Source of the DNA: Sagittula stellata E-37
Lineage (GTDB): Bacteria > Pseudomonadota > Alphaproteobacteria > Rhodobacterales > Rhodobacteraceae
Length of the DNA: 64,000 nt
Direction of reading: 5' to 3'
Assembly (NCBI RefSeq): GCF_039724765.1
Contig: NZ_CP155731.1
Span: 1-64,000 of the forward strand
Shown here: one piece after another, positions 41,249-64,000 of the stretch
Layout of the letters: every line of letters starts with the position of its first letter
How positions within the stretch are numbered: the stretch's first letter is position 1
Made by a program: the position numbers and the translations under genes
Notes under the pieces: generated by a model
Database searches by the model: none
The model's input: only the letters and a program-made list of their open reading frames with translations
What the model was told of the DNA's origin: nothing

Positions 41249-41988
41249 ATCTCGCCTCCCGACAGGCTCAGAGCGTGACCGTTGACCGAGCGCGCCGCGT
41301 CCGAGCAGAGCCAGAGCACGGCACCCGCCACCTCGTCGGTCTGGATGAGGCGTTTCTGCGGGTTCCCCGCACAAAGCGCCGCGCGGGCGTCTTCCTCGGT
41401 CTTGCCGGTCTTTTCGACGATGTTGGCTATGGAGCGTTCCAGCATCGGGGTCTCGATAAATCCGGGGCAGATCGCATTGACCGTGATGCCGGTGCGCGCA
41501 AGCTCCAGCGATAGCGCGCGGGTCAGGCCCACGACCCCGTGCTTTGCCGCGCAATAGGCCGCGACATAGGGAAAGCCCTTGAGGCCGGCGGTCGAGGCGA
41601 TGGCAATCATCCGCCCCCACCCGGCGGCTTTCATGTCCGGCAGCGCGGCCTGCCAGACGTTCGCGACGCCGATCAGGTTGACCGACAGCATGGCTTGAAG
41701 CTGGTCGGGCGTCATTTTGGCGAAGGGCACGCTGTCGGCGGCGCCCGCATTGGCGACGACGCCCGCGATTGGCCCCTGCCCCGCGCGGGCCGCGTCGAAG
41801 GCCTGCCCGACCGCCTGCGCATCGGTCACGTCGCACAGCTGGTAGGGCAGCCCCTGCTCTGCCAGCGGCGCCTCTGACCGGCCCATGATCGTCACTTTGG
41901 CACCGGCCTCGGCCAGGGTCCGGGCGGTCTCTGCCCCGACGCCCGTGCCGCCACCGGTGACGACGATATGCTTGCCCTCGACACTCAT
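41245..41988 (-). CDS. Short-chain dehydrogenase/reductase (SDR)
   Basis: SDR of 247 residues with TGGGTGVG at 11-18, ANAG at 79-82, catalytic S132, Y145 and K149 (YCAAK). R37 after beta-2 suggests NADP use. A 3-hydroxyacyl-CoA dehydrogenase role in the 2-aminobenzoyl-CoA pathway is likely from its position between the bifunctional monooxygenase/reductase and MarR, with ATGA overlaps to both. Confidence 0.87.
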
Positions 41989-44276
41989 ACCCGGATTGCC
42001 TCCGCTTCGCGGTCGGCCAGCCGCCAGCTTTGGTCACGGCCCGCCTCGTAGGGCTTTGGCCATTGGGCGAGGCGGTCACCGATCTTCGCGCCCTCGTGGA
42101 GCGTCCAATACGGGTCGGCCAGATGCGGACGGCCAACCGCCACCAGATCGGCGCGCCCCGCCATCAGGATCGAATTGGCGTGATCGGCCTCGTAGATATT
42201 GCCGACGGCCATCGTCTTCAGCCCCGCGTCATTGCGGATACGGTCCGAGAAGGGCGTCTGGAACATCCGGCCATAGACGGGTTTTGCGTCGACGGTGGTC
42301 TGGCCTGCCGATACGTCGATCAGATCGGCTCCGGCGTCGCTGAACATCCGCGCGATCTGCACCGCCTCGTCGGGGGTGACGCCCGCCTCTCCGACCCAGT
42401 CATTGGCCGAAATGCGCACCGACATCGGCTTGCCCACAGGCCACGCCGCGCGCATCGCCGCGAAGACCTCGAGCGGGTAGCGCATGCGGTTCTCGAGGCT
42501 GCCGCCGTACTCATCGCCGCGGGCATTCGAGACCGGCGAGATGAAGGACGAGATCAGGTAGCCGTGCGCCGCGTGCAATTCGATCATGTCGAACCCCGCG
42601 CGGTCGGCCATCTGCGCCGCCTGGGCGAACTGGTCGCGGATCTCGTCCATCTCGGCGCGCGTGATCTCGCGCGGGGTGGCGTTGCCCTTGGCCCAGGGGA
42701 TCGCCGAGGCGCTGAGAAGGTCCCAGTTGCCCGCGGCCAGCGGCTTGTCCATCCCCTCCCAGCCGATATTGGTCGAGCCCTTGCGCCCGGAATGACCGAT
42801 CTGGCAGCAGATCCTGGCGTCGGTGAAATCGTGCACGAACCCGGTCAGCCGCCGCCATGCCGCCTCGTGCTCGGGCGCATAGAGCCCGGGGCAGCCCGGG
42901 GTGATCCGGCCCGTCGCGCTGACGCAGGTCATCTCGGTGTAGACCAGCCCGGCGCCGCCCTTGGCCCGCTCGCCGTAATGGGTCAGGTGCCAGTCGTTCG
43001 GGCAGCCGTCCTTGGCCATGTATTGCGCCATGGGCGAGACGACGACGCGGTTCTTCAACTCCATGTCGCGCAGCCGGAAGGGCACAAACATCGGCGCCCG
43101 CACCGGAGCATCCTCGGCCATCCCCGCATGCGTCATGAACCAACGCTCGGCGCTCTCCATCCACTTCGGGTCGCGCATCCGCAGGTTTTCATGGCTGATG
43201 CGCTGCGAGCGGGTGAGCATCGAATAATTCAGTTGCACCGGGTCGAGGCCGAGATAGCGCTCTACCTCCTCGAACCACTCCAGCGAGTTGCGCGCGGCGG
43301 ATTGCAGGCGCAACACCTCCAGCCGGCGCTCTTCCTGGTAGCGGGTAAAGGCGGCCTCCAGACTGTCTTCGGTGTGGATGTATTCGGCCAGCGCGATGGC
43401 GCTTTCCATCGCCAGCTTGCTTCCGGACCCGATGGAGAAATGCGCGGTGGCCGAGGCATCGCCCAGCAGTACGACATTCTCGTGATGCCATGTCTCGCAC
43501 AACACGCGGGGGAACCGCAGCCAGGCAGAGCCGCGTATGTGGTTCGCATTTGTCATCAGCGCGTGACCGTCCAGATGCTTGGCAAAGATCCGTTCGCAGA
43601 CTGCGATGGTCTCTTGCTGGCTCATCTCGCCAAAGCCGAAGCGGTCGAAGGTCTCTTGCGCGCATTCCACGATGAAGGTCGCGGTGTCGTCGTCGAACTG
43701 GTAGGCGTGGACCCAGATCCAGCCATGTTCGGTTTCTTCAAATATGAAGGTAAAGGCGTCGTCGAATTTCTGATGCGTGCCCAGCCAGACGAACTGGCAC
43801 AGCCGCTGGTCGATCTCGGGCTTGAAGCTGTCGGCATAAAGCTCGCGGGTCCGGGAATTCAGCCCGTCGCTGGCGACCACGACGTCGAACTCCTTGCGGT
43901 AGTCTTCGGCGCTTTGCACCTCGGTCTCGAACCGCAGGTCAACACCCAGTTCGCGCGCCCGCTCCTGAAGCAGTAGCAGCAGCTTCTTGCGTCCGATCCC
44001 GCAGAACCCGTGGCCCGAAGAGACATGCACCTCGCCCCGGTAATGCAGCGCGATGTCGTCCCAGTAGGCAAAGTTCTCGCCAATCGCCTTGGCGCTGATC
44101 GGGTCGTTGGCAGCAAGGTTCTGGAGTGTTTCGTCCGACAGAACCACGCCCCAGCCGAAGGTGTCGTCAGAGCGGTTGCGCTCGATGACCACGACTTCGG
44201 CTGAAGGGTCGCGCAACTTCATCGATATTGCGAAATAGAGGCCCGCAGGACCCCCGCCCAGACATGCAATGCGCAT
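41985..44276 (-). CDS. Bifunctional 2-aminobenzoyl-CoA (or salicylyl-CoA) monooxygenase/reductase
   Basis: Fusion of two flavin domains, 763 residues. Residues 1 to about 385 are a hydroxybenzoate-hydroxylase-type monooxygenase (FAD motif [15 protein letters not shown], later [27 protein letters not shown]). Residues about 395 to 763 are an old-yellow-enzyme-type reductase ([33 protein letters not shown]). In Azoarcus evansii such an enzyme hydroxylates and partly reduces 2-aminobenzoyl-CoA to 2-amino-5-oxocyclohex-1-enecarboxyl-CoA. Annotated relatives also include salicylyl-CoA 5-hydroxylases; kynU and abmG in the same operon favour aminobenzoyl-CoA. The start has GGGAG six bases upstream. 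Confidence 0.9.
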
Positions 44277-44348
44277 TGCGATCTCCCTTTTCGGCGCCAC
44301 ACCCGCCGGGGCCGCGCGTTGGCATGACGGTAGGTGAGTCGGGCATTT

Positions 44349-47715: not shown

Positions 47716-47731
47716 GGCGCGGCGCCTCAGC
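47711..47731. terminator. Palindrome spanning the stops of two convergent genes
   Basis: GCTGAGGCGC at 47711-47720 is mirrored at 47722-47731. The stop of the FadJ-type gene (TGA, 47713-47715) lies in one arm and the stop of the AraC gene (complement of 47727-47729) in the other. With a realistic loop it is an eight-base stem; no T-run is present. Confidence 0.45.
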
Positions 47732-48752
47732 GCGCTCCGGGCGACGGGTTGTTGCGCCAGTTGCGTGGGGTGGGGCCCATCACGTCGCGAAAGGCGCGGG
47801 TAAAGCTTGCGGTCTCGCCATAGCCCGCCCGCAGCGCGACCTCCAGCACGCTCAGGCGGGTCTCTGACAGCATCCGCGCCGCACGTTCGATCCGGTGCCG
47901 CCTGCCGAGGTCGCGAAACGTCGTCCCTTCGTCGCGCAACCGCCGCCCCAGCGTGGCCGGGCTGACGCCGAGTTGGCGGCAAACCGTTTCCAGTTCCGCG
48001 CCTCCGGGTTGTCCGGCGAGGACCTGCCGCACCTCCTCTGTCCAGGTCCCGATGGCGTGACTGCGCTGTGCGAGCAACTGGATGTAGTGCTGCATCAGCG
48101 CGACGAGGTTGGGATCGTGGCCCGGCGCGCGACGGGTCATGTCGACGGGCTGGAACCAGATCGCGTTCATTTCCTGATCGAAGAACACCGGCGCGCGGAA
48201 AACGGCCTCGTGTGCGCCCAACCGGGCGGGACGGGCGTGTTCGAACCAGACCTCGGACGGCGCATAGCCGGGCCCGAGCAGAAGGCGGATCAAGCGGTCC
48301 ACGTATCCCAGCGAGAACTCCACATCCTGACGGCGCGGCGTCAGGTCGTCGTCGGTGATCCGGTAACGTACATGCGGTGCCGGGCTGTCGTGCACATCGA
48401 AGGCGGTCGCATCCTGGATGGTGAAGACGCTGGACGACAGCGACCGGACGGCATGGGCCAGATCGGGCGAGGCAGCAAAGATATAGCCTGCTGGGCCCAC
48501 CAGTTCCGGACCCATGCCCGTCGACAGTTCCAGTCCGAAACTCTCGCGGCCCTGCGCCTCGGCGATCCGGTCGAAGAGCCTCAGGTAGGCGGCAAAGGGC
48601 ATGGTCCCACCTTCGTCCCTCAGGTCCGCCAGGTTCATTCCCTCGGCCGCAAGCAACGACTCGGCGTCGTCCAGCCGCGCCCCGTTCAGGATACCGCGCA
48701 GGATCTTTGTCTGAATCCGCCGGGCGCGCTCATATTCGCCTGTTTCAACCAT
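47727..48752 (-). CDS. AraC-family transcriptional regulator (OruR/ArgR-like N-terminus)
   Basis: Regulator of 341 residues with the Arabinose_bd-type N-terminal domain of amino-acid and amine responsive AraC proteins (RRIQTKILRGILNGARLDDAESLLAAEGMNLADLRDEGGTMPFAAYLRLFDRIAEAQGRESFGLELSTGM). The C-terminal helix-turn-helix pair reads LETVCRQLGVSPATLGRRLRDEGTTFRDLGRRHRIERAARML and LEVALRAGYGETASFTRAFRDVMGPTPRNWR. It is divergent from the glutamine-synthetase-like gene, and a strong inverted repeat lies in between. Confidence 0.88.
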   Translation of the reverse strand: MVETGEYERARRIQTKILRGILNGARLDDAESLLAAEGMNLADLRDEGGTMPFAAYLRLFDRIAEAQGRESFGLELSTGMGPELVGPAGYIFAASPDLAHAVRSLSSSVFTIQDATAFDVHDSPAPHVRYRITDDDLTPRRQDVEFSLGYVDRLIRLLLGPGYAPSEVWFEHARPARLGAHEAVFRAPVFFDQEMNAIWFQPVDMTRRAPGHDPNLVALMQHYIQLLAQRSHAIGTWTEEVRQVLAGQPGGAELETVCRQLGVSPATLGRRLRDEGTTFRDLGRRHRIERAARMLSETRLSVLEVALRAGYGETASFTRAFRDVMGPTPRNWRNNPSPGAR

Positions 48753-48776
48753 AGCATGACCTGAAACATCAAGAAA

Positions 48777-48822
48777 TTGACGTTATAAATCAAAATGTGA
48801 CCGGAAAAGGCCGTAACGTCAA
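48777..48822. promoter_or_regulatory. Long-spaced perfect inverted repeat, probable AraC operator
   Basis: TTGACGTTA at 48777-48785 is mirrored exactly by TAACGTCAA at 48814-48822, 28 bases apart, in the 119-base divergent spacer between the AraC gene and the ligase gene. Half-site centres are 37 bases apart. Confidence 0.55.
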
Positions 48823-48871
48823 GGCACGCGCAGAGCCTGATCCACAGGCCGATTGAACAGGGAACGACATC

Positions 48872-50200
48872 ATGAGTGAGACGCACAGCCGTTTCGCGAC
48901 CATCGCCATTGTCGACACGAACGGTTTGCTTCGTGGACAGAAGACGCGGGGCGCTGACATTTCGGGACTGCTTGAACAAGGGCCGGGCATGTCGCCCGTG
49001 CAACTGGCGCTGGACCCGACCGACGACATTCTGGACATGCCCGGTGTCACCGACGACACCGCCGACTTCCACGACGCGACCCTCGCCGTCGATGCGGCGA
49101 GCCTCAGGCATATCCCGTTCGAGCGGGACGAAGACAGCCCGCTGTATCTTGCCGAGTTCACCGGAGAGGCCGCCGCCTTTTGCCCCCGCGCCTTGCTGAG
49201 GAAGGTGCTGGGGCGCGTGCGGGACGCCGGGCTGCGCCCCAAGGTTGGCGTCGAGCTGGAATTCACACTGTTCGACGAGACACCCGCCAGTCTTGTTGCC
49301 AAGGGCTATGACGGTCTGACCACCGCGACGGCGCATCCCAGCCACGACCTGATCATCTATCAGGCTGCGCAATCGAGGTTCTATGCCGCCGTTGCCGACA
49401 TGTGCGGGCCGCTCAACATCGGGCTGGGCAAGATGCACGAAGAGATCGGCGGCGGCTTCATGGAATGCTGCATCTCGGCCACCGGCGCGCTGGAGGCCGC
49501 GGACCAGTCAGCCTTGCTCAAGAACTTCCTGCGGGTGCTGGCGATGGGTCAGGACAAGACCGTATGTTTCATGCCGCGCTGGTCGGAAGAGGCGGACAGC
49601 CAGTCGATGCATATCCATGTCTCGCTGGCGGATGCCGAGGGCGAGCCGGTGTTCTGGAACGCGCAGGCCCCCGACCGGATGAGCGACAGCTTCCGCCAGT
49701 TCATCGGCGGGATGCAGACCTATCTGCCCGCGCTCATGCTGATCTTTGCGCCGACGGTCAACGCGTGGCGCCGCTTTGCCCCCGGGACCTTTGCCCCGCC
49801 CGCCTTTTCCTGGGGTGTCGAGAACCGCACCACCGCCTTCCGCGTGGTCGGTCACGGCGCGCGCTCGCTGCGGGTGGAAAACCGCCTGCCCTGTTCAGAT
49901 GCGAACCCGCATCTTGTCATCGCGGCCACCCTCGCCGCCGGTCTGGCCGGCATCGAGGAGGGGCTGGAGCCAAGTGCCCCGACAAGGGGAAACGGTTATG
50001 TGCCGGGTGTGGCGCAGGGCCCTGCCCTGCCCGACGGCATGAACGCCGCAATCGAGGCGCTGCGCGGATCGAGCCTTGCCGCCGATTGGCTGTCGCCGCG
50101 CTTTGTCGAAACCTTCAGCGCCACCCGCGCCGATCAGGCCCGCAAGTTCGAGGGCAAGACCCTGATCGACGAACGCCGCCGCTTTTTCGAGCTGGGGTAA
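48872..50200 (+). CDS. Glutamine synthetase-like ligase (gamma-glutamyl-amide synthetase type)
   Basis: GS-fold ATP-dependent ligase of 442 residues. The N-terminal beta-grasp region (VDTNGLLRGQKTRGADI) is followed by the GS catalytic core: GVELEFTLFDE, LGKMHEEIGGGFMECCIS, the ATP-site SMHIHVSL and FSWGVENRTTAFRV. The NSYKRL motif of true GS reads VNAWRRF, so ammonia is unlikely to be the natural acceptor. Family members join glutamate to an amine: PuuA (putrescine), IpuC (isopropylamine), AtdA1/TdnQ (aniline). The amidotransferase gene three bases downstream supports such a gamma-glutamylation role. Confidence 0.87.
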   Translation: MSETHSRFATIAIVDTNGLLRGQKTRGADISGLLEQGPGMSPVQLALDPTDDILDMPGVTDDTADFHDATLAVDAASLRHIPFERDEDSPLYLAEFTGEAAAFCPRALLRKVLGRVRDAGLRPKVGVELEFTLFDETPASLVAKGYDGLTTATAHPSHDLIIYQAAQSRFYAAVADMCGPLNIGLGKMHEEIGGGFMECCISATGALEAADQSALLKNFLRVLAMGQDKTVCFMPRWSEEADSQSMHIHVSLADAEGEPVFWNAQAPDRMSDSFRQFIGGMQTYLPALMLIFAPTVNAWRRFAPGTFAPPAFSWGVENRTTAFRVVGHGARSLRVENRLPCSDANPHLVIAATLAAGLAGIEEGLEPSAPTRGNGYVPGVAQGPALPDGMNAAIEALRGSSLAADWLSPRFVETFSATRADQARKFEGKTLIDERRRFFELG

Positions 50201-50203
50201 GCC

Positions 50204-50917
50204 ATGAAGATCGGTATTCTCGAATGCGGTGAGAACCGCCCCGACTGGGCCCGCTTCGGGCGCTTCGCCGACTGGTTCCCGCCGCTTCTGGCTGAAGCGG
50301 GTCAGCCGTTCGACACCCGGTTCTATGCCGTGTGGCAAGGCGAATTGCCCGACAGCGCAGTTGAATGCGACGCCTGGCTGCTGACCGGCAGCCCGGCCAG
50401 TGTTCTGGACGATGCGCCGTGGCAGCGCGCGCTTTCGGACTTTCTTGCCCCGCTTGTCGGGCGCGTGCCGCTGATCGGGATCTGCTACGGGCACCAGCAT
50501 CTGCATCACATGCTGGGCGGGCGGGTCGAGGAGTGCCGCGACTGGGGCATCGGCGTCCACCATTACGACGTCACGGCCCTGCCCGACGGGGTCGAAGAGG
50601 ACGACGGCGGCGGCATCAGCCTGATTGCCCTGCACCACGATCAGGTGACGCACCCTGCCCCCGGAACCCGGGTTCTGGCCGGGTCGGCCTTTTGCCCCTA
50701 CGGCATCACGCAGATCGGCCCGCGTACGCTGACCATCCAGCTTCACCCCGAAATGGACCCGGCCTTCGCCGCCGAGGTCTACGACTTTGAACGCCAGAGG
50801 ATCGGCGAAGCCGCCACGGAGGCCGGGCTCGCCGCTCTGGATAGCCCGCGCCAGACCACGCGCGCCGCGCAGTGGATCATGGCGTTTCTCGCCCATGCAT
50901 CGGAGGACAGGACATGA
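50204..50917 (+). CDS. Class I glutamine amidotransferase / gamma-glutamyl hydrolase-like protein
   Basis: GATase1-fold protein of 237 residues. Catalytic triad: C94 in IGICYGHQHLHHMLGG, with H180 and E182 in TIQLHPEMD. No synthetase domain is attached and no biosynthetic partner is near, so it probably hydrolyses a gamma-glutamyl amide or, as proposed for AtdA2/TdnT in aniline breakdown, works with the GS-like ligase. Its stop overlaps the P450 start. Confidence 0.87.
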   Translation: MKIGILECGENRPDWARFGRFADWFPPLLAEAGQPFDTRFYAVWQGELPDSAVECDAWLLTGSPASVLDDAPWQRALSDFLAPLVGRVPLIGICYGHQHLHHMLGGRVEECRDWGIGVHHYDVTALPDGVEEDDGGGISLIALHHDQVTHPAPGTRVLAGSAFCPYGITQIGPRTLTIQLHPEMDPAFAAEVYDFERQRIGEAATEAGLAALDSPRQTTRAAQWIMAFLAHASEDRT

Positions 50918-52179
50918 CGACGACCGAACAGACCAGACCCCGGACCCGGATCGACCTTGCCGATGCGGGGTTGTGGCAGGACGGTCCGCCGCAGGCGGAA
51001 TTCGCCCGCCTGCGCGCCGAAACACCGGTCGCCTGGAACGAGCGCCACGACGGGCACCGCGGCTTCTGGGCGGTGACTCGCTACGATGACATCGTAGCCG
51101 TGTCCAAGGACACCGAGACCTATTCTTCGCGCAATGGCGTCATCTCGCTCGACGATTTCGACGACGCGCAGAACGACAAGCGGCGCACGCTGCTGGAAAT
51201 GGACCCGCCGCAACACGGCAAGATGCGGATGATCACCCTGCCCGGCTTTACCCGGCGCGGTGTCGGCGGGCTGGAGGCAGACGTGCGCAACCGCGTCGCC
51301 GCCCTGCTGGACGACCTGGCCGGCACGGGAAGCTTCGAGGCGGTCGAGACGCTGACCAAGCAGGTGCCGATCATCACGCTCTGCTCGCTCTTGGGTATTC
51401 CGACCGACCGGACCAAGGATTTGATCCGCTGGTCGGACATGCTGATTGGTTCGGACGATCCGGACTTCGTCGATCCGATCGTGGACCAGTATTCGGAGGC
51501 CGAGCGCCGGATGATGCCCTTCGGCCATCCCGCCGCGCTTCAGGCCTTCGAGATGGGGCGCGAGCTGGCCTCGGACCGACGCGCCAATCCGCGCGAGGAT
51601 GTGATCACGATGCTGGTGCAGGCGCAGGTGGACGGGCGTCCCCTGACCGAGGACGAATTCCTCAATTATTTCCTGATGCTGGTCGTGGCCGGCAACGAGA
51701 CCACGCGCCACACGATGAGCCACGGTCTGCGCGCTCTGGCCGATCATCCGGGCGAATGGGATCGTTTTCGGGCCGGGGGGATCAAGAGCCAGACCGCCAC
51801 GGACGAGATCCTGAGATGGGCCTCGCCCGTCCATTTCGTGCGCCGGATCGCAACGCGGAACATGGCACTGGCCGGCGCAGAGATCGCCACGGGGGACAAG
51901 GTCGCGATGTATTTCACGTCAGGCAATCGCGACGAGGCTCACTTCGATGCGCCCGACCGGTTCGACATCGGCCGCGCACGCAACCCGCACATGGCCTTCG
52001 GCAAGGGCGGGCCGCATTTCTGTCTTGGAAACTTCGTGGCCCAGTTGCAGATTCGCGTTTTGATCGAAGAACTGGCCACCCGCGTCGCCCGGATCGAAAC
52101 CACGGGGCGGGTGGACATCCTGCGCTCGAACCACATCCACGGGGTCAAGGCGCTGGATCTCGCGTTTCATTCCGCGTGA
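50914..52179 (+). CDS. Cytochrome P450
   Basis: Soluble bacterial P450 of 421 residues. The I-helix motif is LVVAGNETTRHTMSHG, the ExxR is in TDEILRWASPVHFVRRI, and the haem loop is MAFGKGGPHFCLGNFVAQLQ with the Cys ligand. This loop has one residue more than the FxxGxxxCxG consensus, a form seen in the CYP124/125/142 group of alkyl hydroxylases. The start overlaps the amidotransferase stop (ATGA); a frame from 50872 is out of context. No ferredoxin or reductase partner gene is adjacent, although the iacF-type reductase is nearby. Oxidation of the gamma-glutamylated substrate is the simplest role. Confidence 0.91.
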   Translation: MTTTEQTRPRTRIDLADAGLWQDGPPQAEFARLRAETPVAWNERHDGHRGFWAVTRYDDIVAVSKDTETYSSRNGVISLDDFDDAQNDKRRTLLEMDPPQHGKMRMITLPGFTRRGVGGLEADVRNRVAALLDDLAGTGSFEAVETLTKQVPIITLCSLLGIPTDRTKDLIRWSDMLIGSDDPDFVDPIVDQYSEAERRMMPFGHPAALQAFEMGRELASDRRANPREDVITMLVQAQVDGRPLTEDEFLNYFLMLVVAGNETTRHTMSHGLRALADHPGEWDRFRAGGIKSQTATDEILRWASPVHFVRRIATRNMALAGAEIATGDKVAMYFTSGNRDEAHFDAPDRFDIGRARNPHMAFGKGGPHFCLGNFVAQLQIRVLIEELATRVARIETTGRVDILRSNHIHGVKALDLAFHSA

Positions 52180-52498
52180 TCCGGGCGCAAAGGGCCGCCG
52201 CAATGCTCCGGCCCTTTGCACGGCGCGCAGCGGCGATGGTGTTCATGCACGCGGGGACACCGGCATGGACCGAGGTTTCTAGCACGATCTCGGGGATCTC
52301 TTCCCGGCTCACGCCGGTATTCATCGCCGCGCGCATCTGAAAGTCGAATTGGCCCGGCCCGCTCAAGCATATCCGAGAACGTATGGCTTAGGACCAAATC
52401 CGCAGCCTCTGGGTGGCACGCGTCCAGTTCCTTTGCCCCGGCTCAGGACGCTCCAGTTTGGCAAGCACACGGGTCAGACGATCGGATGTATCGCTCAT
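52180..52498 (-). pseudogene. Carboxymuconolactone decarboxylase family remnant
   Basis: A minus-strand relic in pieces. From an ATG at 52496-52498 the frame reads SDTSDRLTRVLAKLERPEPG, the usual opening of these proteins, then stops. A different frame gives HTFSDMLERAGP, and another gives FDFQMRAAMNTGVSREEIPE followed by IVLETSVHAGVPACMNTIAAARRAKG, the C-terminal half. The central catalytic stretch is deleted and at least two frameshifts are present. The 3' end runs into the P450 coding end. The family includes PcaC and CMD-like peroxidases; the original role is unknown. Confidence 0.65.
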
Positions 52499-52769
52499 GT
52501 GTCCACCCTTCATGCCTTCGTCGGTGCGGCGCGCGCCGGAAACCGGACGTTCGGCGCGGCCTGAAAATCGCGATGCGCGCGGTCAAGCCGGACCGTGCGC
52601 ACGTGTGTCGCTGCACCGGGTGGGTACACTTTGACTACAAGCTTGCCGTTTGCGGCACGGAGGGCAAGAGGCCCCCACGTGCACCAAACGCGCCGTTCGA
52701 TGGAACCGGGCATCCGGGCCGCGCCAAAACGCGGCGGAGCCACACAGGCCCGGCACAGGCCCGCGCGCC
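52499..52769. other. Spacer without a supported gene
   Basis: About 270 bases between the decarboxylase remnant and the TRAP DctM gene. The dctM frame's neighbour stays open on the minus strand to 52510 (ending in a run of basic and proline residues), but it has no start, ribosome site or family resemblance. No terminator with a T-run and no repeat could be identified. It is probably decayed sequence. Confidence 0.4.
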
Positions 52770-54056
52770 TCACATCATGCGCGGCAGGAACAACACCAGC
52801 GCCGGAAAGGCGAGGATCAGCGCTACGCGCACCACGTCGACCAGCAGGAACGCCCAGAGGCCGCGAAAGATCGTGCCGAGTGAGACATCCTTGACGACCG
52901 ACTTCAGCACGAAGGCGTTCAGACCAACGGGTGGCGTGATATAGCTCAGCTCTGTGACGATCACCACGTAGACGCCGAACCAGATCAGATCGTAGCCCAG
53001 CCCGGCCACTATGGGATAGAAGATCGGGATTGTGAGGGTGATCATCGACAGCCCCTCCAGAACGCAGCCCAGGGCAAGGTAGATGGCCGTGATGATCAGG
53101 ATTGCCACCAGCCGGTTGTCGGTCACGGTCACAAGGTCCTGAATGTCGCGGCCCATGCCCGACAGGTTGACGTAATTCGCGAAGGTCAGCGCGCCGAAGA
53201 GGATCAGGAACATGCTCGCCGTGGTCTTGGCGGTGTCGAAGAGCGTGCGCATCAGGTCGGAGAGGTTCATCCGGCGTTGCAGGATAACCAACAGGAACGC
53301 GCCCCCAGCCCCCATGCCCGCGCTCTCTGTCGGGGTGAAGACGCCAAGGTAAATGCCGCCCATCACGAAGACGAACAGGCAGAGCGCTCCGATCACGCCC
53401 TTGAGAGAGTATAGGCGCTCCGCCAGTGGCAGCTTGGGTTCGGTCGGAAGATCGAACTTGCCCGTGGCGATGGAAATCCGCACGGCGACGACGTATAGCG
53501 CGATGCCGATCAGACCCGGGACGATGCCCGCAAGGAACAGCTTGCCGATGTCCTGCTGGGTCATGATCCCGTAGAACACCAGAATGACGGAGGGCGGGAT
53601 CAGGATGCCCAGAGTACCCCCGGCTGCGATCGAGGCCGTAGACAGGCTGTCGGGATAGTTGAACCGTCGCATCGACGGCATGGCGATCTTGGTCATGGTC
53701 GACGCGGTGGCCAGCGATGAGCCGCAGACCGACGAAAAGCCTCCGCAGGCGATCACGGTGGCCATGGCCAGCCCGCCCTTGCGGTGACGCAGCCAGGAAT
53801 AGGCGGCTGTGTAGAGGTCGTTGGCGATGCCCGACTGGACGACGAAATTGCCCATCATCAGAAACAGCGGCAGGATCGACAGCGCATAGGCGCGGCTGTT
53901 GTCGAAGAAGGTCTGCCCCAAGAGCGCCAGCGACGGCGCCCAGCCGATGATCGCCACGGTGCCGATGGTGCCCACGAGGGTCAGCGCCAGCCCGATGGGC
54001 ACGCCTGCAAAGAGCATCCCGAAGAGGACGACGAGACCGATTTCCCACTCAGCCAT
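52770..54056 (-). CDS. dctM: TRAP transporter large permease, DctM
   Basis: Inner-membrane permease of 428 residues with about 12 hydrophobic segments. DctM landmarks: LFAGVPIGLALTLVG, SVCGSSLATASTMTKIAMP, AAGGTLGILIPPSVILVFYG, TPTESAGMGAGGAFLL and the C-terminal TPPVGLNAFVLKSV. It overlaps the dctQ stop by eight bases and is the distal gene of the iac-dct operon, so indole-3-acetate or a related aromatic acid is the likely cargo (inferred from position). Confidence 0.93.
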   Translation of the reverse strand: MAEWEIGLVVLFGMLFAGVPIGLALTLVGTIGTVAIIGWAPSLALLGQTFFDNSRAYALSILPLFLMMGNFVVQSGIANDLYTAAYSWLRHRKGGLAMATVIACGGFSSVCGSSLATASTMTKIAMPSMRRFNYPDSLSTASIAAGGTLGILIPPSVILVFYGIMTQQDIGKLFLAGIVPGLIGIALYVVAVRISIATGKFDLPTEPKLPLAERLYSLKGVIGALCLFVFVMGGIYLGVFTPTESAGMGAGGAFLLVILQRRMNLSDLMRTLFDTAKTTASMFLILFGALTFANYVNLSGMGRDIQDLVTVTDNRLVAILIITAIYLALGCVLEGLSMITLTIPIFYPIVAGLGYDLIWFGVYVVIVTELSYITPPVGLNAFVLKSVVKDVSLGTIFRGLWAFLLVDVVRVALILAFPALVLFLPRMM

Positions 54057-54543
54057 TATGGCCTCGCTTTCCTAGTATCTGCACGAGGGTGATGACCGCA
54101 GCCGCTCCACAGAGCACCGCCACCCCGTAGGCGAGGGGCGCAAGCGGCAGCTTGAGCGTCGGCGTCGTGCCGCCATACCCGGCGATCTGGTCGCCGATCT
54201 TCCACAGCCGCCACGCTACCACCCCGAGAATGCCGGAGGAGACCAGCGCCACGGCTGTTTCCAGAACGGCCTGGAGCCAACCGGACAGCCGTGCCGTCAG
54301 AACGTCGACATAGATATGGTCGCGGTCGAGACTGGCGGCGGGCAGGCCGATGAAGATCACGGCGGCCAGCATCAACTCGGTCAGTTCGGTGGCGCCCTTG
54401 ACCGGTGCGTTCATCAGATAGCGCCCCAGCACGTCCGCCATGGTCAACAGCATCATGGCAAGCAGCAGCACCGCGCATATCGCTGCGATGCCGCTGCGCA
54501 GCCAGCGGGTCACCCCGCTGGCTGCAGAAATCGTTGCGGTCAT
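54049..54543 (-). CDS. dctQ: TRAP transporter small permease, DctQ
   Basis: Four-helix membrane protein of 164 residues. Helix 1 is GIAAICAVLLLAMMLLTMADVLGRYLMN, followed by the DctQ motif GATELTELMLAAVIFIGLPAASLDRDHIYVDVL. It overlaps dctP at its start (four bases) and dctM at its end, as usual for DctPQM operons. Confidence 0.92.
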   Translation of the reverse strand: MTATISAASGVTRWLRSGIAAICAVLLLAMMLLTMADVLGRYLMNAPVKGATELTELMLAAVIFIGLPAASLDRDHIYVDVLTARLSGWLQAVLETAVALVSSGILGVVAWRLWKIGDQIAGYGGTTPTLKLPLAPLAYGVAVLCGAAAVITLVQILGKRGHNG

Positions 54544-55559
54544 TCCGCTTCGAGCTTGGCGATTTCGTCGAGCAGCATGTCATAGGCCGCCTGCCCGTCG
54601 ACGCCGGTCTCGGAGATCAGGGCGATGTTGGCTTCGATCACCGGCTTGAACCGCTCTTTCAGCGTGGCGATGTCCTCGGGCGTGGCGTCGTAGATGTCGA
54701 GTTTGCCCTCCATCGCGGCGCGGCCCGCCGCGTCGGCCTTGTTCCACATCTCGCCCGCCTTGTGCGCGAGCGGCTCGCCGATGATCTCTTCGATGGCGGC
54801 CTGGTCCTCGGGTGCGATGGAGTCCCATTTTGCCTGGTTCATCACGAAGAGGAAGGCGGTGTTGTAGACCCCACCCTCTGCCACGAAGGCCGACGACAGC
54901 AGATCCCCCAGCCGGAAGAAGTTGACGGACTCCCACGGGAAGAAGATCCCGTCCGCCACCTTCTGGCTCAGCAGCTCATAGGATTTCGACGAAGGCCCTT
55001 CGACCGGTACGGCGCCGAGCAATGAGGCCAGGTCATGCGCCACGACTGAACCGACACGGATCTTCTGGCCTTCGAGGTCGTCGACGCTGGCGATCGGCGA
55101 AGACGAGAAGATCTGTCCCGGTCCATGGGTGTGGACGGCCAGCACCTTGACGCCTTCGTATTCCCCGGCCTCGGCCAGCATCGCGTCGTGCACGCGCTGA
55201 TAGGCCACCGAAGATACCACGGCATCCGAGGTCAGGAAGGGCATCTCGGCGACGGCGGAGGTCTTGAACCGGCCCGGCGTGTAGCCCTGGACCGAGTAGC
55301 CGATATCGACCACGCCGTTCTTGACGAGATCGAAGGTGGCAGGGGGCGGTCCCATCGGGGCGGGCAGGACGTTGACCGTGACGCGGCCCTCGGTGACGCG
55401 CTCGATATCTTCGGCGAAGGGCAGCACAAAGTCGGTGACCTGCGGATGGGTCGGCGGCAGCCAGCTGTTGAGCGTGAGGACGGTATCTGACCACCCGGCG
55501 GTTGCGGTGGTCACGGTCGCCACGCAGGCGGTGGCAAGAACTCTGGTTATGGTTTTCAT
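54540..55559 (-). CDS. dctP: TRAP transporter solute-binding protein, DctP
   Basis: Periplasmic binding protein of 339 residues. The signal peptide (RVLATACVATVTTATAGWS) is followed by LTLNSWLPPTHPQVTDFVLPFAEDIERVTEGRVTVNV. GQKIRVGSVVAHDLASLLGAVPVEGPSSKSYELLSQKVADGI is the DctP substrate-Arg region. The start at 55557-55559 has a clear context; a longer frame upstream overlaps iacG. It follows iacG after a 131-base spacer with a 13-base-pair hairpin, so it is expected to be part of the iac operon. Confidence 0.92.
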   Translation of the reverse strand: MKTITRVLATACVATVTTATAGWSDTVLTLNSWLPPTHPQVTDFVLPFAEDIERVTEGRVTVNVLPAPMGPPPATFDLVKNGVVDIGYSVQGYTPGRFKTSAVAEMPFLTSDAVVSSVAYQRVHDAMLAEAGEYEGVKVLAVHTHGPGQIFSSSPIASVDDLEGQKIRVGSVVAHDLASLLGAVPVEGPSSKSYELLSQKVADGIFFPWESVNFFRLGDLLSSAFVAEGGVYNTAFLFVMNQAKWDSIAPEDQAAIEEIIGEPLAHKAGEMWNKADAAGRAAMEGKLDIYDATPEDIATLKERFKPVIEANIALISETGVDGQAAYDMLLDEIAKLEAE

Positions 55560-55621
55560 TCGAGCGTTTCCCTGTTGGTTGAAAGAAGTGCCCCGTTCAT
55601 CCGGGGTCTGGTTGGGTTTCT

Positions 55622-55659
55622 GGCCGGGGGCGGAGATAAGGGGTGGTCCGCCCCCGGCC
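55622..55659 (-). repeat. Strong stem-loop between iacG and dctP
   Basis: A perfect 13-base-pair stem, 55622-55634 (GGCCGGGGGCGGA) with 55647-55659, around a 12-base loop. No T-run follows in the direction of transcription, so it is more likely an mRNA-stability or partial-termination element that sets the dct genes apart from the iac genes. Confidence 0.65.
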
Positions 55660-55690
55660 GACACCCCTGCTGGCGCGCGTCCGGGGAGGA

Positions 55691-56188
55691 TCAGGCGGGC
55701 CTGTGCAGGTGGTGATAGTCGCGGCTGAAGTAGACGAGCCCGGCGGCGGGCCGGTCCGACAGGTGCACCGCGCGGACTTCGCAGAACATCACCGAATGGG
55801 TGCCCTGTTCGAGCAGGCTGCCGATCCGGCAATCGAGCGCGACATTGGCATCCGTCAGCACCGGAGAGCCAGTGGCGCGGGTGATCCAGTCGCCATAGGC
55901 GAAGCGGTCGACGCCTTCGACGTAACGGGCGAAGGTGTTGCACAGGTCCTGATGCTGGCTGGCCAGCACGTTGACGCAGAGCGTACCGTTCTGCAGGAAC
56001 TTGTCGTGCACAAAGCTGTTTCGGTTGATGCAGACCAGCACCGTGGGCGGGCTGTCAGTGACCGAGCAGACTGCCGAGGCGACCAGCCCGTGTTTGCCCG
56101 CCGGCCCGTCGGTGGTGATCAGGTTCACCGCCGCGCCCATGCGGCTCATGCCTTCGCGGAAGGCGATCTGGTCTTCGGTCAGGTCCAT
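55691..56188 (-). CDS. iacG: Flavin reductase, IacG-like
   Basis: Flavin reductase domain protein (DIM6/NTAB type) of 165 residues. FREGMSRMGAAVNLITTDGPAGKHGLVASAVCSVTDSPPTVLVCINRNS is the FMN-binding part, and the GTHSVMFCEVRAV region closes the barrel. It would supply reduced flavin to the IacA oxygenase encoded six genes upstream in the operon. Start at 56186-56188 after GGGGAC. Its position after iacF matches the iac order described in Pseudomonas putida 1290. Confidence 0.9.
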   Translation of the reverse strand: MDLTEDQIAFREGMSRMGAAVNLITTDGPAGKHGLVASAVCSVTDSPPTVLVCINRNSFVHDKFLQNGTLCVNVLASQHQDLCNTFARYVEGVDRFAYGDWITRATGSPVLTDANVALDCRIGSLLEQGTHSVMFCEVRAVHLSDRPAAGLVYFSRDYHHLHRPA

Positions 56189-56199
56189 GTCGTCCCCTT

Positions 56200-57159
56200 T
56201 CAGATGTCCAGCACGAGTTTGCCGCGCCCGCGCGAGCAGCAGACGCACATCTGGTCGCCGTCTTCGCGTTCTTCGTCGGTCAGGAACTGGTCGCGGTGGT
56301 CGATGTCCCCGCTCAGAACGTCGGTCACGCAGGTGCCGCAGACGCCTTCTTCGCATTTGACGTCGATCTTGATGCCGTGCTCGGCCAGTTTCTTGGCGAT
56401 GGTGTCTTCCGGCCCGATCGTCAGCGTCACACCCGAGGCGCGGGCCTCGACCTCGAAGCTGTCGCCGGTCAGGTCCACATCGGCCGAGAAATACTCGCGG
56501 TGCACGTTCCCGGTCGCGTGGCCCGCCGCTTCGGCGGTGTCGATCACCCAGTCCATGAAGCCCTGCGGGCCGCAGACGTAAAGATGCGTGTCCGGCGCGG
56601 GCGCGGGCAGGTCGCGGGTCAGGTCCAGCTTTTGCTCTGCCGCTTCGTCGTCGTGGTGGAACACCACGCGGTCGGAGAATGGCGCAGCCTTCAGCGCGTC
56701 GTGAAAGGCGGTCACGGATTGCGAGCGGGTGCAATAGTGCAGGACAAAATCCTTGCCGAGCGCGTGCAGCCGTTTCGCCATGGCGATCATCGGTGTGATG
56801 CCGATGCCCCCTCCCAACAGCACCGTCTTTGTGGCGCTTTCATCCAACGGGAAGTGGTTGCGCGGGCCTTCGACCTTCAGCGTCGCGCCGGGCTGTGCCA
56901 CGCGGTGCACCTCGACAGAGCCGCCGCGCGAGGCCGGGTCCTTCAGCACGCCGATCTCGTAGAACCCGGTTTCCGCCGGGTCGGAGCACAGCGAATACTG
57001 GCGCCACAGATCCACGTCGGGCAGGTAGATGTCGAGATGCGCGCCGGCGGTGACGGACGGAAGGTCGTCGCCCGTCAACCGGATGCGGGCGATGCCGCCC
57101 CGGTCGTCGATCCGCTCGGTCACGGTCAGGGTCATGGTATCGGTCATGTCGAGGCTCAT
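56200..57159 (-). CDS. iacF: Ferredoxin reductase component of the Rieske oxygenase, IacF-like
   Basis: Electron-transfer protein of 319 residues of the phthalate dioxygenase reductase/VanB class: an FMN-binding barrel (AHLDIYLPDVDLWRQYSLCSDP), an NAD domain (VLLGGGIGITPMIAMAKRL, HLYVCGPQGFMDWV), and a C-terminal plant-type 2Fe-2S ferredoxin (CEEGVCGTC, then a fourth Cys in the MCVCCSRG segment). It passes electrons from NADH to the IacCD oxygenase. The start overlaps the iacE stop (ATGA). Confidence 0.92.
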   Translation of the reverse strand: MSLDMTDTMTLTVTERIDDRGGIARIRLTGDDLPSVTAGAHLDIYLPDVDLWRQYSLCSDPAETGFYEIGVLKDPASRGGSVEVHRVAQPGATLKVEGPRNHFPLDESATKTVLLGGGIGITPMIAMAKRLHALGKDFVLHYCTRSQSVTAFHDALKAAPFSDRVVFHHDDEAAEQKLDLTRDLPAPAPDTHLYVCGPQGFMDWVIDTAEAAGHATGNVHREYFSADVDLTGDSFEVEARASGVTLTIGPEDTIAKKLAEHGIKIDVKCEEGVCGTCVTDVLSGDIDHRDQFLTDEEREDGDQMCVCCSRGRGKLVLDI

Positions 57160-57914
57160 CTCATGTAGATCCCGCCGTTCACGTCCCAGCAGGCGCCGTT
57201 GACGAAGGCCGCGCGCGGGGCTGCGAGCATGGAGACCAGCTCGGCCACGAACTTGGGATCGCCGAGGTCGCCCACGGGGATGTTCTTCCTGGCGGCGTCG
57301 ATGTTGTCGCCCAGGACCTCGCGCACCATGGGCGTGTCCATCGGGCCCGGCGCGATGGCGTTGCAGGTCACGCCAAAGGGCGCGAGGTCGCGGGCAAAGA
57401 TCTTGGTCAGCGTCAGGATCGCGCCCTTGGAGGCGGCGTAATGCGCCCCCGTGGCCGTCCCGCCGTTCTGCCCGGCCAGCGAGGCCATGTTGACGATCCG
57501 GCCATAGCCGCGCTCCTTCATGTGGCGGCCGAAGATCTGGCAGCCGGCAAAGGTGCCGCCCGCATTGGTGGCCATCACCTCGTTGAAGAAGGCGGGGTCG
57601 ATGTCGAGCACCGGCTGCACGGCTGTGCGCGCGGCATTGTTCACCAGCACCTCGACAGAGCCGTAGAAGGTGATGCACTGGTCCAGCACCGTCTGGAAAT
57701 CTTCGGGCTTTGTCACGTCCAGCGTAGCGGTCGTCGCCGTTTCTCCGGAGAGGTCCAGTTCCGATGCCAGAGCCTTGGCATGCTCCGGTTCCATGTCGGT
57801 GATGACGACGCGAAAGCTGTCGCGGTGCAGGGCGCGGGCGACTTCGGCGCCAAAGCCGCGCGCGCCGCCGGTGATGACGGCGGTCTGAATCTGATCTGGC
57901 AAGGGCGCCACCAT
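57156..57914 (-). CDS. iacE: Short-chain dehydrogenase/reductase, IacE-like
   Basis: SDR of 252 residues with TGGARGFG at 15-22, D40 after beta-2, NNAA at 92-95 in place of NNAG, and catalytic S145, Y159 and K163 (YAASK). In the described iac pathway IacE acts on the hydroxylated indole-acetate intermediate between the IacA and IacCD steps. Assignment rests mainly on its place between the dioxygenase small subunit and the reductase gene. Confidence 0.88.
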   Translation of the reverse strand: MVAPLPDQIQTAVITGGARGFGAEVARALHRDSFRVVITDMEPEHAKALASELDLSGETATTATLDVTKPEDFQTVLDQCITFYGSVEVLVNNAARTAVQPVLDIDPAFFNEVMATNAGGTFAGCQIFGRHMKERGYGRIVNMASLAGQNGGTATGAHYAASKGAILTLTKIFARDLAPFGVTCNAIAPGPMDTPMVREVLGDNIDAARKNIPVGDLGDPKFVAELVSMLAAPRAAFVNGACWDVNGGIYMR

Positions 57915-58408
57915 CAGAACAGATAGCTGAACGAATTCAGCATCCCGTCGGAGTTGAGCAGCTTGACCACTTTGCGGTGCAGCTTGAAGCCGCCGTCAAC
58001 GGCCTTCAGCTCGTAGTAGGCGTTGCCAGCCCAGGTCCGCTGACGCCCGAACTTGTCCTCGATGAGATGCTCGGCCGCGCGCACGGCGATCAAGTCGCCC
58101 TCGGTCTTGTCGATCACGATACGGCTGATCGTGCGCACGGTGACGGCGGGCGGCGCCGAGGAAATCGAGAACCCGGCCTGAAAGCGCCCGATCCGGTCAC
58201 GCCGCATCTTGGCGTTGTCGTAGCACAGGTTGAGCTGGTTGGCGTAATCCTCGCCCGCGCCCATCGGCATGATGTAAAGCCCGTCCTCGGTCCAGAGGTC
58301 CAGCCACTCGTCATAGGCGCAGGCGTCCAGCAGGTCGGCCTCGTGCCAGAGAAACCGGGTCACATCCATGAGAAGCGCATTGGTGTCGATCTTGGACATC
58401 TCGGTCAT
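57914..58408 (-). CDS. iacD: Aromatic-ring-hydroxylating dioxygenase small subunit, IacD-like
   Basis: Beta subunit of 164 residues with the NTF2-like fold of ring-hydroxylating dioxygenases: DVTRFLWHEADLLDACAYDEWLDLWTEDGLYIMP, the middle SRIVIDKTEGDLIAVRAAEHLIEDKFGRQ, and the C-terminal GGFKLHRKVVKLLNSDGMLNSFSYLF. The start at 58406-58408 overlaps the large-subunit stop. It provides the structural partner of IacC. Confidence 0.91.
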   Translation of the reverse strand: MTEMSKIDTNALLMDVTRFLWHEADLLDACAYDEWLDLWTEDGLYIMPMGAGEDYANQLNLCYDNAKMRRDRIGRFQAGFSISSAPPAVTVRTISRIVIDKTEGDLIAVRAAEHLIEDKFGRQRTWAGNAYYELKAVDGGFKLHRKVVKLLNSDGMLNSFSYLF

Positions 58409-59679
58409 GCCATCATCCTCTTCCACATCTTGTAGGCGGCGCGCATGCCGGTCTCGGCGCTGATATGGCCACGCGGGCCGGCGGTGCCCGGCTCTTCGTC
58501 GACCATGCCGCGGTTCACCAGGATGGGCAGTTGCTCGCCGCCCTTGGTACCGCGCTGGACGCGCTCCCAGACCTCGGCGTCATCGGGGCTGCCAAAACCC
58601 ATCGGGCCCTGGAAGTGCTCGTGCAGGCGCAGGCGCATCTGGTTCGCCGCCGCCGGGCCGCCATCCATGCCAAGCGCCATGTGGCGGATATCGGTCCGCT
58701 CGACGCTGACCGGGGTCAGCACCCGGAAGAAGGCGAGGCTGAAGGACACGTTCGGGAAGAGGTTCAGGTTGAACCCCGCCCCGCCAACCGCGCGGACGAT
58801 GCGGCGCACCTGGTCATCGGGATAGCCTTCGTCGCGCAGCTCCTGCGCCAAAGCCGAGAAGCGTTCCGGGATCGGCGCGTCGAGATTGGCCTCCAGATCC
58901 TCTAGCTCGGGGATCATCATCATGACCGAATGGCCATTGCCCAGGTCCTCGACCCAGCCCTTGCCCTTGTCGAGAAAGTCGAACATCTCGTTCGTCGCGC
59001 CGTCGAGCGTCTGCATGAAGCTCTTGTGCACCACCGGGAAGTGGTAGGCGTCGGTGGTGTTTTCCAGCTGCACCTTCCAGTTCATCGGCACGGTGAACTG
59101 ATGCTCGCCCAGCACCTTCACCGGGAACCCGCCGCCCTGTTTCATGAACAGGTCGATATAGCGGCAGACCTCGGGGCCGAGGAAATCGACCAACGGTTCG
59201 ATGTCGTCGTTGAAGGTGGCGAAGACCATGCCGTTATAGGCCTCGGTCCGCAGTTTCAGGAGGCCATGCTGGGCTTTGTCGAAATCGTCGCCGTATTGCT
59301 CGGGGTAGGGCAGCGCGCGCAGGCTGCCGTCCAGCGCATAGCCCCAGCCGTGATAGGGGCACTGGAACGAGGCGGTCTTGCCCTTCTTGACCTCGCAGAC
59401 TGTCGCGGCGCGGTGACGGCAGCGGTTGACCATGCAGTGGATCTTGCCCTTGCGGTCGCGCACGACGATCACGGGTTCCAGACCCACGTTTGACAGCTTG
59501 AACGACCCCTTGTCGGGGAATTCGCTTTCATGGGCGACAAAGACCCAGGTCCGCTTGAAGACCTTCTCCATCTCTTCGGCGAACAGATCGGGGTCTTCGT
59601 ACATCTCGGTCGCGACCTTGGCGTTCTCTTCGTCGTAGAGCGCGTCGAGATCGCTGAATTTCGGCATATCGAGGGACAT
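58405..59679 (-). CDS. iacC: Rieske dioxygenase large subunit, IacC-like
   Basis: Alpha subunit of 424 residues. Rieske 2Fe-2S ligands C87, H89, C107 and H110 (CRH, 17 residues, CPYH). Mononuclear iron ligands D210, H213 and H218 in NTTDAYHFPVVHK fit the family pattern. In the iac route this oxygenase, with IacD and IacF, converts dioxindole-type acetate intermediates towards catechol. Three bases separate it from iacB. No catechol dioxygenase gene is in the window, so ring cleavage must be encoded elsewhere. Confidence 0.93.
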   Translation of the reverse strand: MSLDMPKFSDLDALYDEENAKVATEMYEDPDLFAEEMEKVFKRTWVFVAHESEFPDKGSFKLSNVGLEPVIVVRDRKGKIHCMVNRCRHRAATVCEVKKGKTASFQCPYHGWGYALDGSLRALPYPEQYGDDFDKAQHGLLKLRTEAYNGMVFATFNDDIEPLVDFLGPEVCRYIDLFMKQGGGFPVKVLGEHQFTVPMNWKVQLENTTDAYHFPVVHKSFMQTLDGATNEMFDFLDKGKGWVEDLGNGHSVMMMIPELEDLEANLDAPIPERFSALAQELRDEGYPDDQVRRIVRAVGGAGFNLNLFPNVSFSLAFFRVLTPVSVERTDIRHMALGMDGGPAAANQMRLRLHEHFQGPMGFGSPDDAEVWERVQRGTKGGEQLPILVNRGMVDEEPGTAGPRGHISAETGMRAAYKMWKRMMA

Positions 59680-59682
59680 GGC

Positions 59683-60054
59683 TCAGCTCCTGTGCTGTGC
59701 GGGAATTTCCAAGGCGCGACCCATGCGCGCCTCGACGGTCATGTACTTCCACAGGCGGTCGTTGCCTTCGCCCACCTGGATGGTGCGCAGCAGGTTGCAG
59801 GCGGCCTGCACGGTCTCGCGGTCGGGGAAATCGGCCATGATGTACCAGGTGAAGGGGAAGCCCTGCGTCGCGCCGACCATGGTCTGGTCATCGTCGAAGG
59901 TGCCGGTGATCTCGACGCCCTCCAGGTCGGCGATGCCGCGCATCAGCGCCTGCGTCGCGGTCCAGACCGGGCCGATCTGATCGAAGGGCAGCGAAAAGAA
60001 CGTCGGGTGGTTGTTGAAGCACAAAAGCGTGCGGATCGGGGTCTTGTCGGACAT
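59683..60054 (-). CDS. iacB: Small conserved protein, IacB-like
   Basis: Protein of 123 residues with a ferredoxin-like/EthD-type look (TPIRTLLCFNNHPTFFSLPFDQIGPVWTATQALMRGIADLEGVEITGTFDDD). No known catalytic motif. It lies between iacA (nine bases) and iacC (three bases), exactly where iacB is found in described iac clusters; the biochemical role of IacB is not established. Assigned by synteny and size. Confidence 0.85.
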   Translation of the reverse strand: MSDKTPIRTLLCFNNHPTFFSLPFDQIGPVWTATQALMRGIADLEGVEITGTFDDDQTMVGATQGFPFTWYIMADFPDRETVQAACNLLRTIQVGEGNDRLWKYMTVEARMGRALEIPAQHRS

Positions 60055-60063
60055 CGGGGCCTC

Positions 60064-63799: not shown

Positions 63800-64000
63800 T
63801 TAACTATAGGCGACGCAGACCGACTTGGTTTCCAGGAAATTATCCAGCGCGCCCGACCCATGCTCGCGCCCGATCCCTGACTGTTTGAAGCCGCCGAAGG
63901 GCATGTTCTGGTCAGGGATGTTGTGGCTGTTGATCCAGACCGTCCCCGCCTGCACCTTTGGCACCAGCCGCATGACGCGGTTGATGTCCCGACTCCACAA
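63800..64000 (-). CDS. Aldehyde dehydrogenase, C-terminal part (5' end outside window)
   Basis: The last 66 residues of an NAD(P)-dependent aldehyde dehydrogenase. AGTVWINSHNIPDQNMPFGGFKQSGIGREHGSGALDNFLETKSVCVAY is the conserved C-terminus of the family. The INSHN...MPFGGFKQSG version is seen in PuuC-, betaine-aldehyde- and phenylacetaldehyde-dehydrogenase-like enzymes. The catalytic Cys and Glu lie outside the window. Near an IAA gene set, oxidation of indole-3-acetaldehyde is a possible role, but this is inference from position. Confidence 0.9.
   Translation of the reverse strand: MWSRDINRVMRLVPKVQAGTVWINSHNIPDQNMPFGGFKQSGIGREHGSGALDNFLETKSVCVAYS

Follow-up and report, generated by a model that had tools for sequence, protein, structure and literature searches.

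In polyamine breakdown, PuuA and PuuD provide a ligase and a gamma-glutamyl hydrolase, and oxidation is carried out by an amine oxidase; an isopropylamine utilization (Ipu) system is also said to operate in Pseudomonas KIE171. The breakdown of isopropylamine in Paenarthrobacter aurescens TC1 has been described as ligation by IpuC, oxidation by a multicomponent cytochrome P450 and the action of an amidotransferase, the last step being 'postulated' (PMC6776027), and thus the tag-oxidize-untag scheme is already known. For aniline and naphthylamine, PMC11335346 states that AtdA2 and NpaA2 hydrolyze the tagged substrate back and that NpaA2 is dispensable. The piperidine and morpholine P450s PipA and MorA, from Mycobacterium and with relatives in Gulosibacter, have glutamine synthetase (GS) genes with neighboring locus numbers, which the authors relate to nitrogen assimilation (PMC9477822). 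Here we describe a locus in a 64,000-nucleotide stretch of Sagittula stellata E-37 (the window; bases 1-64000 of the 183,377-bp contig C3; the genome comprises 5.29 Mb in five contigs), in which genes for a GS-like gamma-glutamyl ligase, a class-I glutamine amidotransferase (GATase)-fold hydrolase and a P450 form a trio.

The trio is real, conserved and mechanistically sensible, and what is new about it is the lineage of its P450, not the scheme. An earlier note made from the letters of this DNA (the sequence-only reading) had presented the P450 as a departure from Ipu. This point could not be maintained, since Ipu itself comprises a ligase, a multicomponent P450 and an amidotransferase according to PMC6776027 and the genes of CP000475 (order in pTC1: short-chain dehydrogenase/reductase (SDR)-GATase-P450-ferredoxin-reductase-IpuC).

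The operon and its catalytic residues

The ligase, GATase and P450 genes constitute one tight operon (Table 1). Three bases separate the first two genes, the GATase stop overlaps the ATG at 50914 by 4 bases, which makes this codon the most likely P450 start, and in all three frames the GC content varies with codon position as it does in coding DNA. A longer GTG reading from 50872, implied by the sequence-only reading, was set aside in favor of this ATG; its account of three genes 3 bases apart or overlapping, with a divergent AraC gene, agrees with the coordinates and domain matches. No sigma-70-type site was found in 48600-52900, where one was looked for.

In an alignment with GlnA of the same genome, the ligase retains the ATP, metal and glutamate residues, lacks FDGSS (Asp50) and has GTFAPP where GlnA has GYEAP; GTFAPP is present in all 10 loci of the close form described below. 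The roles of these residues are those that we assume for GlnA, and we take the flap Glu to be residue 327, not 357. PMC11335346 gives the absence of Asp50' and of the type I GS flap Glu (printed there as Glu357) as a mark of organic-amine ligases, and both losses are found in the window ligase together with retained GS catalytic residues. Because the ATP, metal and glutamate residues are kept and the ammonium-site residues of GlnA are absent, an organic amine is the likely substrate, as judged from sequence. None of the NCBIfam equivalog models scored above its own cut-off with the ligase (gamma-glutamylputrescine synthetase, 148 against 650). The catalytic triad of the GATase (Table 1) is kept in all 10 close loci, and the naming of these two proteins as a GS-like ligase and a GATase is borne out by their residues.

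Conservation of the gene order

Species genomes were scanned with an alignment of 18 ligase sequences, which yielded 108 relatives; the best 80 were kept, and a close relative of the window P450 lies beside the ligase in seven of these 80 (L011, L012, L013, L016, L018, L020 and L021). Adding N. humi (L092), a locus (L165) of the family that includes Hydrogenophaga and the window itself gives 10 close loci, all picked for holding the P450; L164 represents the same genome as L011. The order ligase-GATase-P450 on one strand was found in all 10, and the recurrence of the same order and strand is more than chance would give. The search for this order in other genomes, which had been proposed together with the operon, therefore supports the arrangement. 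Moreover, the pairwise identities of the three proteins are correlated over these loci (r between 0.92 and 0.96, p 0.0001 by permutation, uncorrected for host relatedness), and GATase and P450 are fused in two protein clusters (P0176 and P0186). In the beta- and gammaproteobacterial loci L013, L018, L020 and L165 (4 of 10), ferredoxin reductase and ferredoxin genes stand directly downstream and an amino-acid-type permease gene is near the trio, and a divergent AraC gene was identified in six loci, all alphaproteobacterial.

The close form is rare. It occurs only in the genome studied here among 394 genomes of the family and among 390 of the order, in 2 of 399 genomes of the family of Hydrogenophaga (the centre included) and in 1 of 397 of the family of Novosphingobium, which is the centre itself. 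Several candidate features were rejected. L018 is not an additional fusion, as its long frame is a 5' extension and its GATase is separate; a class-III aminotransferase does not mark the window clade, as L021 has BioA and L092 another subfamily; and a QhpR-like regulator, which would have hinted at induction by amines, could not be recognized, as similar scores were obtained for the various AraC proteins tested (206-223 bits against a cut-off of 250), including one 19 kb away on C3.

The P450 branch and its signature

In a 39-row P450 tree, the ligase-linked rows and seven of unknown context form one branch of 26 rows with moderate support (91/87), outside which fall the controls, the Ipu P450 and three further P450s from the genome studied here. 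Ligase linkage was assigned to 19 rows, with adjacency not seen for P0128 and P0176 and deduced for P0131, P0137 and P0165 from the species or the length of the contig. The window P450 belongs to this branch, which lies beside CYP125, has the F-G-loop motif RxxPFxxP and has a ligase neighbor in both Proteobacteria and Actinobacteria. The partner ligases of the branch are not one group (at least 4 label changes, with IpuC counted as P450-linked), and thus one P450 lineage appears to have been paired with several ligase lineages.

A residue signature was drawn from 113 window-clade rows and 34 paralog rows (31 distinct), compared with 12 other P450s. Of 25 positions conserved in both sets and mostly different in those 12, eight were chosen (R90, E95, R125, R199, F203, P206, N251 and E386), with the actinobacterial, M. 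loti and EMRT-2 rows in view during the choice. The stretch R199-P206 lies between helices F and G of the structural model (mean predicted local distance difference test score 88.6), which served only for fold and secondary structure, and is absent from most controls and from CYP125. The window P450 has all eight residues, and scores of 0-3 were obtained for the controls and the genome's three other P450s and of 1 each for the Ipu and Nonomuraea proteins.

The signature was then applied to 14 loci outside the choice, of which L152 was dropped because it had no open frame. Ten of the remaining 13 have 8/8 residues and an adjacent ligase, four of them also a GATase, and the other three have 1-3 of 8 residues and no ligase, although these three are nearer to the window P450 (40-43% identity) than the signature-bearing ten (36-38%). 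When refetched as L223, L152 showed 8/8 residues and a GATase; its contig ends right after the P450, which leaves the ligase beyond judgment. A further 42 family loci have 7 or 8 of the residues, those with 7 including both that lack a ligase and six that bear one. Signature and ligase linkage are not independent, since the positives share ancestry. Four further proteins (P0240, P0242, P0243 and P0244), ~50% identical to the window P450, have 7/8 residues, with Thr at 251.

Paralogous trios

A second trio, in the order P450-ligase-GATase, is located on the chromosome of the same genome, and its P450 is 38% identical to that of the window. At E 1e-70 a P450 of this kind was detected at 73 places in 71 of the 394 family genomes (own included), and the places other than the window's are 34-41% identical to it. 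Within the 3-20 kb of DNA examined, a ligase is nearby at 70 of the 72 paralog places and a GATase at 68 (29 places of the best, with 29 ligases and 28 GATases; the genome's own, with both; and 42 more, with 40 and 39). The ligase match is partial and ~3 kb off at L187, and at L198 the ligase is ~1 kb away in the other direction.

The branch is spread over Proteobacteria and Actinobacteria and was detected in 70 of the 393 other family genomes sampled. A ligase also stands beside relatives in Streptomyces, two Embleya, Novosphingobium EMRT-2, Mesorhizobium loti, Ruegeria TM1040 and Tritonibacter. In L126 and L128 the ligase-P450 pairs also adjoin acetoacetate-decarboxylase-family genes and have no GATase. 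The Nonomuraea P450 (L137; 43% identical, 319 bits) has no ligase within 6 kb and was counted against the linkage; this protein and L149, also 43% identical and without a ligase, led us to reject the rule that every P450 above ~290 bits is ligase-linked. No ligase was found for eight weaker relatives (L129, L140-L146), controls hand-picked as a subset of 44 plasmid records.

Several genes recur beside 18 paralogous trios, namely those for aminotransferase (13), IclR (13), TctC (12), GntR (12), TctA (11), TctB (10) and aldehyde dehydrogenase (7), the class-III aminotransferase being a consistent neighbor only around such trios. These transporter and aminotransferase neighbors hint at a carboxylate-bearing amine whose nitrogen is still present once the P450 has acted. 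On C3, ~12 kb right of the window's trio, genes for aldehyde dehydrogenase, TctA, TctB, TctC and class-III aminotransferase (to 71755) are all on the minus strand, with TctA, TctC and the aminotransferase 65%, 63% and 47% identical to one paralogous-trio set; this set may belong to the pathway, a functional link that we infer.

Proposed route and alternative explanations

It is reasonably probable that the trio encodes a tag-oxidize-untag route for an amine. Using ATP, the ligase would link an organic amine to glutamate through the gamma-carboxyl group, the P450 would hydroxylate a carbon of the gamma-glutamyl amide with ferredoxin and reductase supplied from elsewhere in the genome, and the GATase-fold hydrolase would free glutamate and the hydroxylated amine, or dispose of surplus tagged amine; the route may be completed by a transaminase and an aldehyde dehydrogenase. 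Both the reactions and their order are inferred here from the conserved gene order, the fusions, the correlated identities, the ligase residues and the isopropylamine precedent, as well as from the ferredoxin and reductase genes at the beta- and gammaproteobacterial loci, the second trio and the 70/72 and 68/72 counts.

On the other hand, several observations weigh against this proposal. As regards a class I P450 system, in which ferredoxin and an FAD reductase donate the electrons, such genes adjoin the trio at four of the 10 close loci and not in the window; the nearest redox-partner relatives in this genome are candidates on C1 (46% and 47% identity). Two paralog places, L213 (also without GATase) and L216, lack a ligase in the 8.2 kb examined and yet have 7/8 signature residues. 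The GATase was not found beside L126, L128 and L138, nor in six of the ten signature-bearing loci outside the choice; as it is not universal, the core is ligase plus P450. The back-hydrolysis by AtdA2 and NpaA2 and the dispensability of NpaA2 imply that the GATase may not act last. In addition, neither an assayed enzyme nor a description of this P450 branch was found in the literature searched, most subscription journals being beyond reach.

An unlikely alternative is oxidative N-dealkylation, in which the P450 would hydroxylate the carbon next to the amide nitrogen and the hemiaminal would give an aldehyde or ketone plus glutamine, with the GATase as a glutaminase. The aldehyde dehydrogenase genes near several trios would fit, glutamine could be a substrate of a class-I GATase fold and GATase-less loci would cope; however, the class-III aminotransferase beside 13 of 18 paralogous trios suggests that an amino group is left after the P450 step, and the amine is kept in the Ipu precedent. 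Ligase-P450 pairs lie beside a dihydroxyphenylacetate-type extradiol dioxygenase in Streptomyces canus (L126) and a catechol 1,2-dioxygenase in Novosphingobium EMRT-2 (L128), both with an HpaE-like aldehyde dehydrogenase, which would suit ring hydroxylation of a tagged aniline-type amine toward catechol, with the P450 replacing the Rieske dioxygenase of AtdA. These two P450s are, however, ~40% identical to that of the window and lack a GATase neighbor, and no ring cleavage genes were seen among the annotated neighbors of the 10 close loci, where no systematic search for them was made; we regard such an aromatic route as quite improbable.

The sequence-only reading had suggested tryptamine or another arylalkylamine as the substrate. 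The trio does sit between kynureninase/aminobenzoyl-CoA-type genes and iac-like genes, and the latter adjoin it in Phaeobacter HF9A as well; however, in the other eight close loci no iac-like Rieske gene was found within ~4-10 kb on each side, two of them having a weak (23%) relative, similar to acyl-CoA dehydrogenase (ACAD), of the window's IacA-like gene. As no more than 2 of the 10 loci have indole-acetate genes next to the trio, tryptamine is a guess, and an arylalkylamine route feeding an indole-acetate operon is the least probable of the explanations considered. A role in biosynthesis or detoxification, whereby a glutamylated, oxidized metabolite would be made or a toxic amine disarmed, could explain why the close form is rare and scattered; but transporters, aldehyde dehydrogenases, aminotransferases and catabolic regulators make up the neighborhood and no peptide synthetase or polyketide genes were seen among the neighbors scanned, and we regard this role as very unlikely.

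Beyond the tag-oxidize-untag route itself, we put forward with more doubt than confidence that the branch beside CYP125 is specialized for gamma-glutamyl amides, that the arginine motif of the F-G loop reads the tag and that this allows pairing with ligases from several GS subfamilies, widening the range of amines. If true, glutamylation would be a general handle for oxygenases (Rieske, P450 and flavin type) and not a single-pathway quirk, and the eight-residue signature would predict P450s taking glutamate-tagged amines. Numerous P450s in soil and marine bacteria would thereby receive their first functional assignment, and many ligase-P450 pairs would become available with which to test amine breakdown and the selective hydroxylation of amines.

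Genomic surroundings and sister ligases

Table 1. Features of the trio and its surroundings in the window
Feature	Position	Strand	Basis or remark
GS-like gamma-glutamyl ligase, organic-amine (GoaS) type, 442 aa	48872-50200	+	PF00120, 258 bits
Class-I GATase-fold hydrolase, 237 aa, Cys94/His181/Glu183	50204-50917	+	PF00117, 34.1 bits (cut-off 22.8)
Cytochrome P450, 421 aa, ligase-linked branch beside CYP125	50914-52179	+	PF00067, 78.6 bits (cut-off 22.8)
AraC-type regulator, divergent from trio	47727-48752	-	PF12625 and PF12833
Intergenic, between divergent AraC and ligase genes; presumed control region	48753-48871	.	Position only
TRAP transporter, right of trio	52770-55943	-	
iac-like set: Rieske alpha and beta, SDR, reductase, ACAD-like protein, amidase	57156-62354	-	
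Aldehyde dehydrogenase, part in window	63821-64000	-	Whole gene C3:63821-65230, crossing base 64000

To the left of the trio lie ACAD and multifunctional beta-oxidation genes, followed by a set with kynureninase (279 bits, cut-off 246) and CoA-ligase, ACAD, enoyl-CoA hydratase and flavin hydroxylase genes, whose composition suggests an aminobenzoyl-CoA role. A bifunctional FAD/FMN protein at 41985-44300 (minus strand), whose gene adjoins the kynureninase and CoA-ligase genes, matches the NCBIfam salicylyl-CoA 5-hydroxylase/oxidoreductase model with 1302 bits (cut-off 1078) and is suspected of a 2-aminobenzoyl-CoA role. To the right, the Rieske genes (57914-59679, minus strand) are beyond the TRAP (tripartite ATP-independent periplasmic) transporter and outside the trio operon. 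Gene composition points to an indole-acetate operon, with no iac-specific model among the matches for this set, and the aldehyde dehydrogenase noted earlier at the right edge is confirmed (Table 1). The genome has seven GS-domain places (on C1 and C3), two of which (L002 and L003) are separated by ~1.1 kb, and a GATase-like gene is located between these two or alongside.

Among the 18 closest-ligase loci (L011-L028), a P450 was identified in seven, an ACAD-type protein in eight and both in none; L017, L019 and L023 have neither, and their DNA begins within 2.3 kb upstream of the ligase. A putative flavin-type oxygenase possibly takes the place of the P450 at sister-ligase loci. The sister ligases without a close P450 (L014, L022-L091) show 53-63% identity, and their neighbors among the 80 loci include an ACAD-type protein (67), an alpha/beta hydrolase (68), TetR (68) and an M29-type peptidase (64). 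A flavin reductase (PF01613) and a GATase are also present at L014, which belongs to the ACAD group, and in L081 and L090 a sister-group ligase adjoins a paralog-type trio. Furthermore, a CoA ligase 75-81% identical to the product of window gene 37200-38828 lies within 10 kb in eight of the 80 sister-ligase loci (L040, L042, L056, L058, L074, L084, L086 and L089), of which L040 and L086 also hold ACAD, hydratase and flavin hydroxylase genes of the aminobenzoyl-CoA-type set. A link of the sister ligases to anthranilate-type catabolism is possible.

Comparison with described systems

PuuA and PuuD resemble the trio in combining a ligase with a hydrolase, but the oxidation is by an amine oxidase there and would be by a P450 here. 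In AtdA and NpaA (aniline and naphthylamine dioxygenase), a GS-like ligase and a GAT-like enzyme precede the oxygenase as in the trio, whereas that oxygenase is a Rieske dioxygenase instead of a P450 (PMC11335346); Rieske genes in the same operon, as in the AtdA type, are absent from the window. The P450s PipA and MorA act on cyclic amines, and their genes have locus numbers close to those of glutamine synthetase genes, a likeness to the trio by description (PMC9477822).

The window P450 shares the fold of CYP125 and CYP124, and its earlier assignment as CYP124/125-like holds in that the nearest solved structures are the reconstructed CYP125MRCA (45-46% identity), with natural CYP125 and CYP124 at 32-34%, making it CYP125-like. 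In the aligned CYP125 chains the F-G-loop motif is gapped and residue 251 is not Asn, whereas the window P450 has 8/8 signature residues; signature and alignment thus separate it from CYP125, the tree having been built without natural CYP125.

Ipu of Paenarthrobacter aurescens TC1 resembles the proposed route in its working, with a ligase, a P450 and an amidotransferase on a gamma-glutamyl amide. The two differ in gene order and in the ferredoxin and reductase genes, which are adjacent in pTC1 and not in the window, and IpuC is 31% identical to the window ligase. As the Ipu P450 is 29% identical to that of the window, has 1/8 signature residues and lies outside the branch, the trio is Ipu-like in its working and is not filed as Ipu, and the arrangement of ligase, P450 and GATase probably arose more than once.

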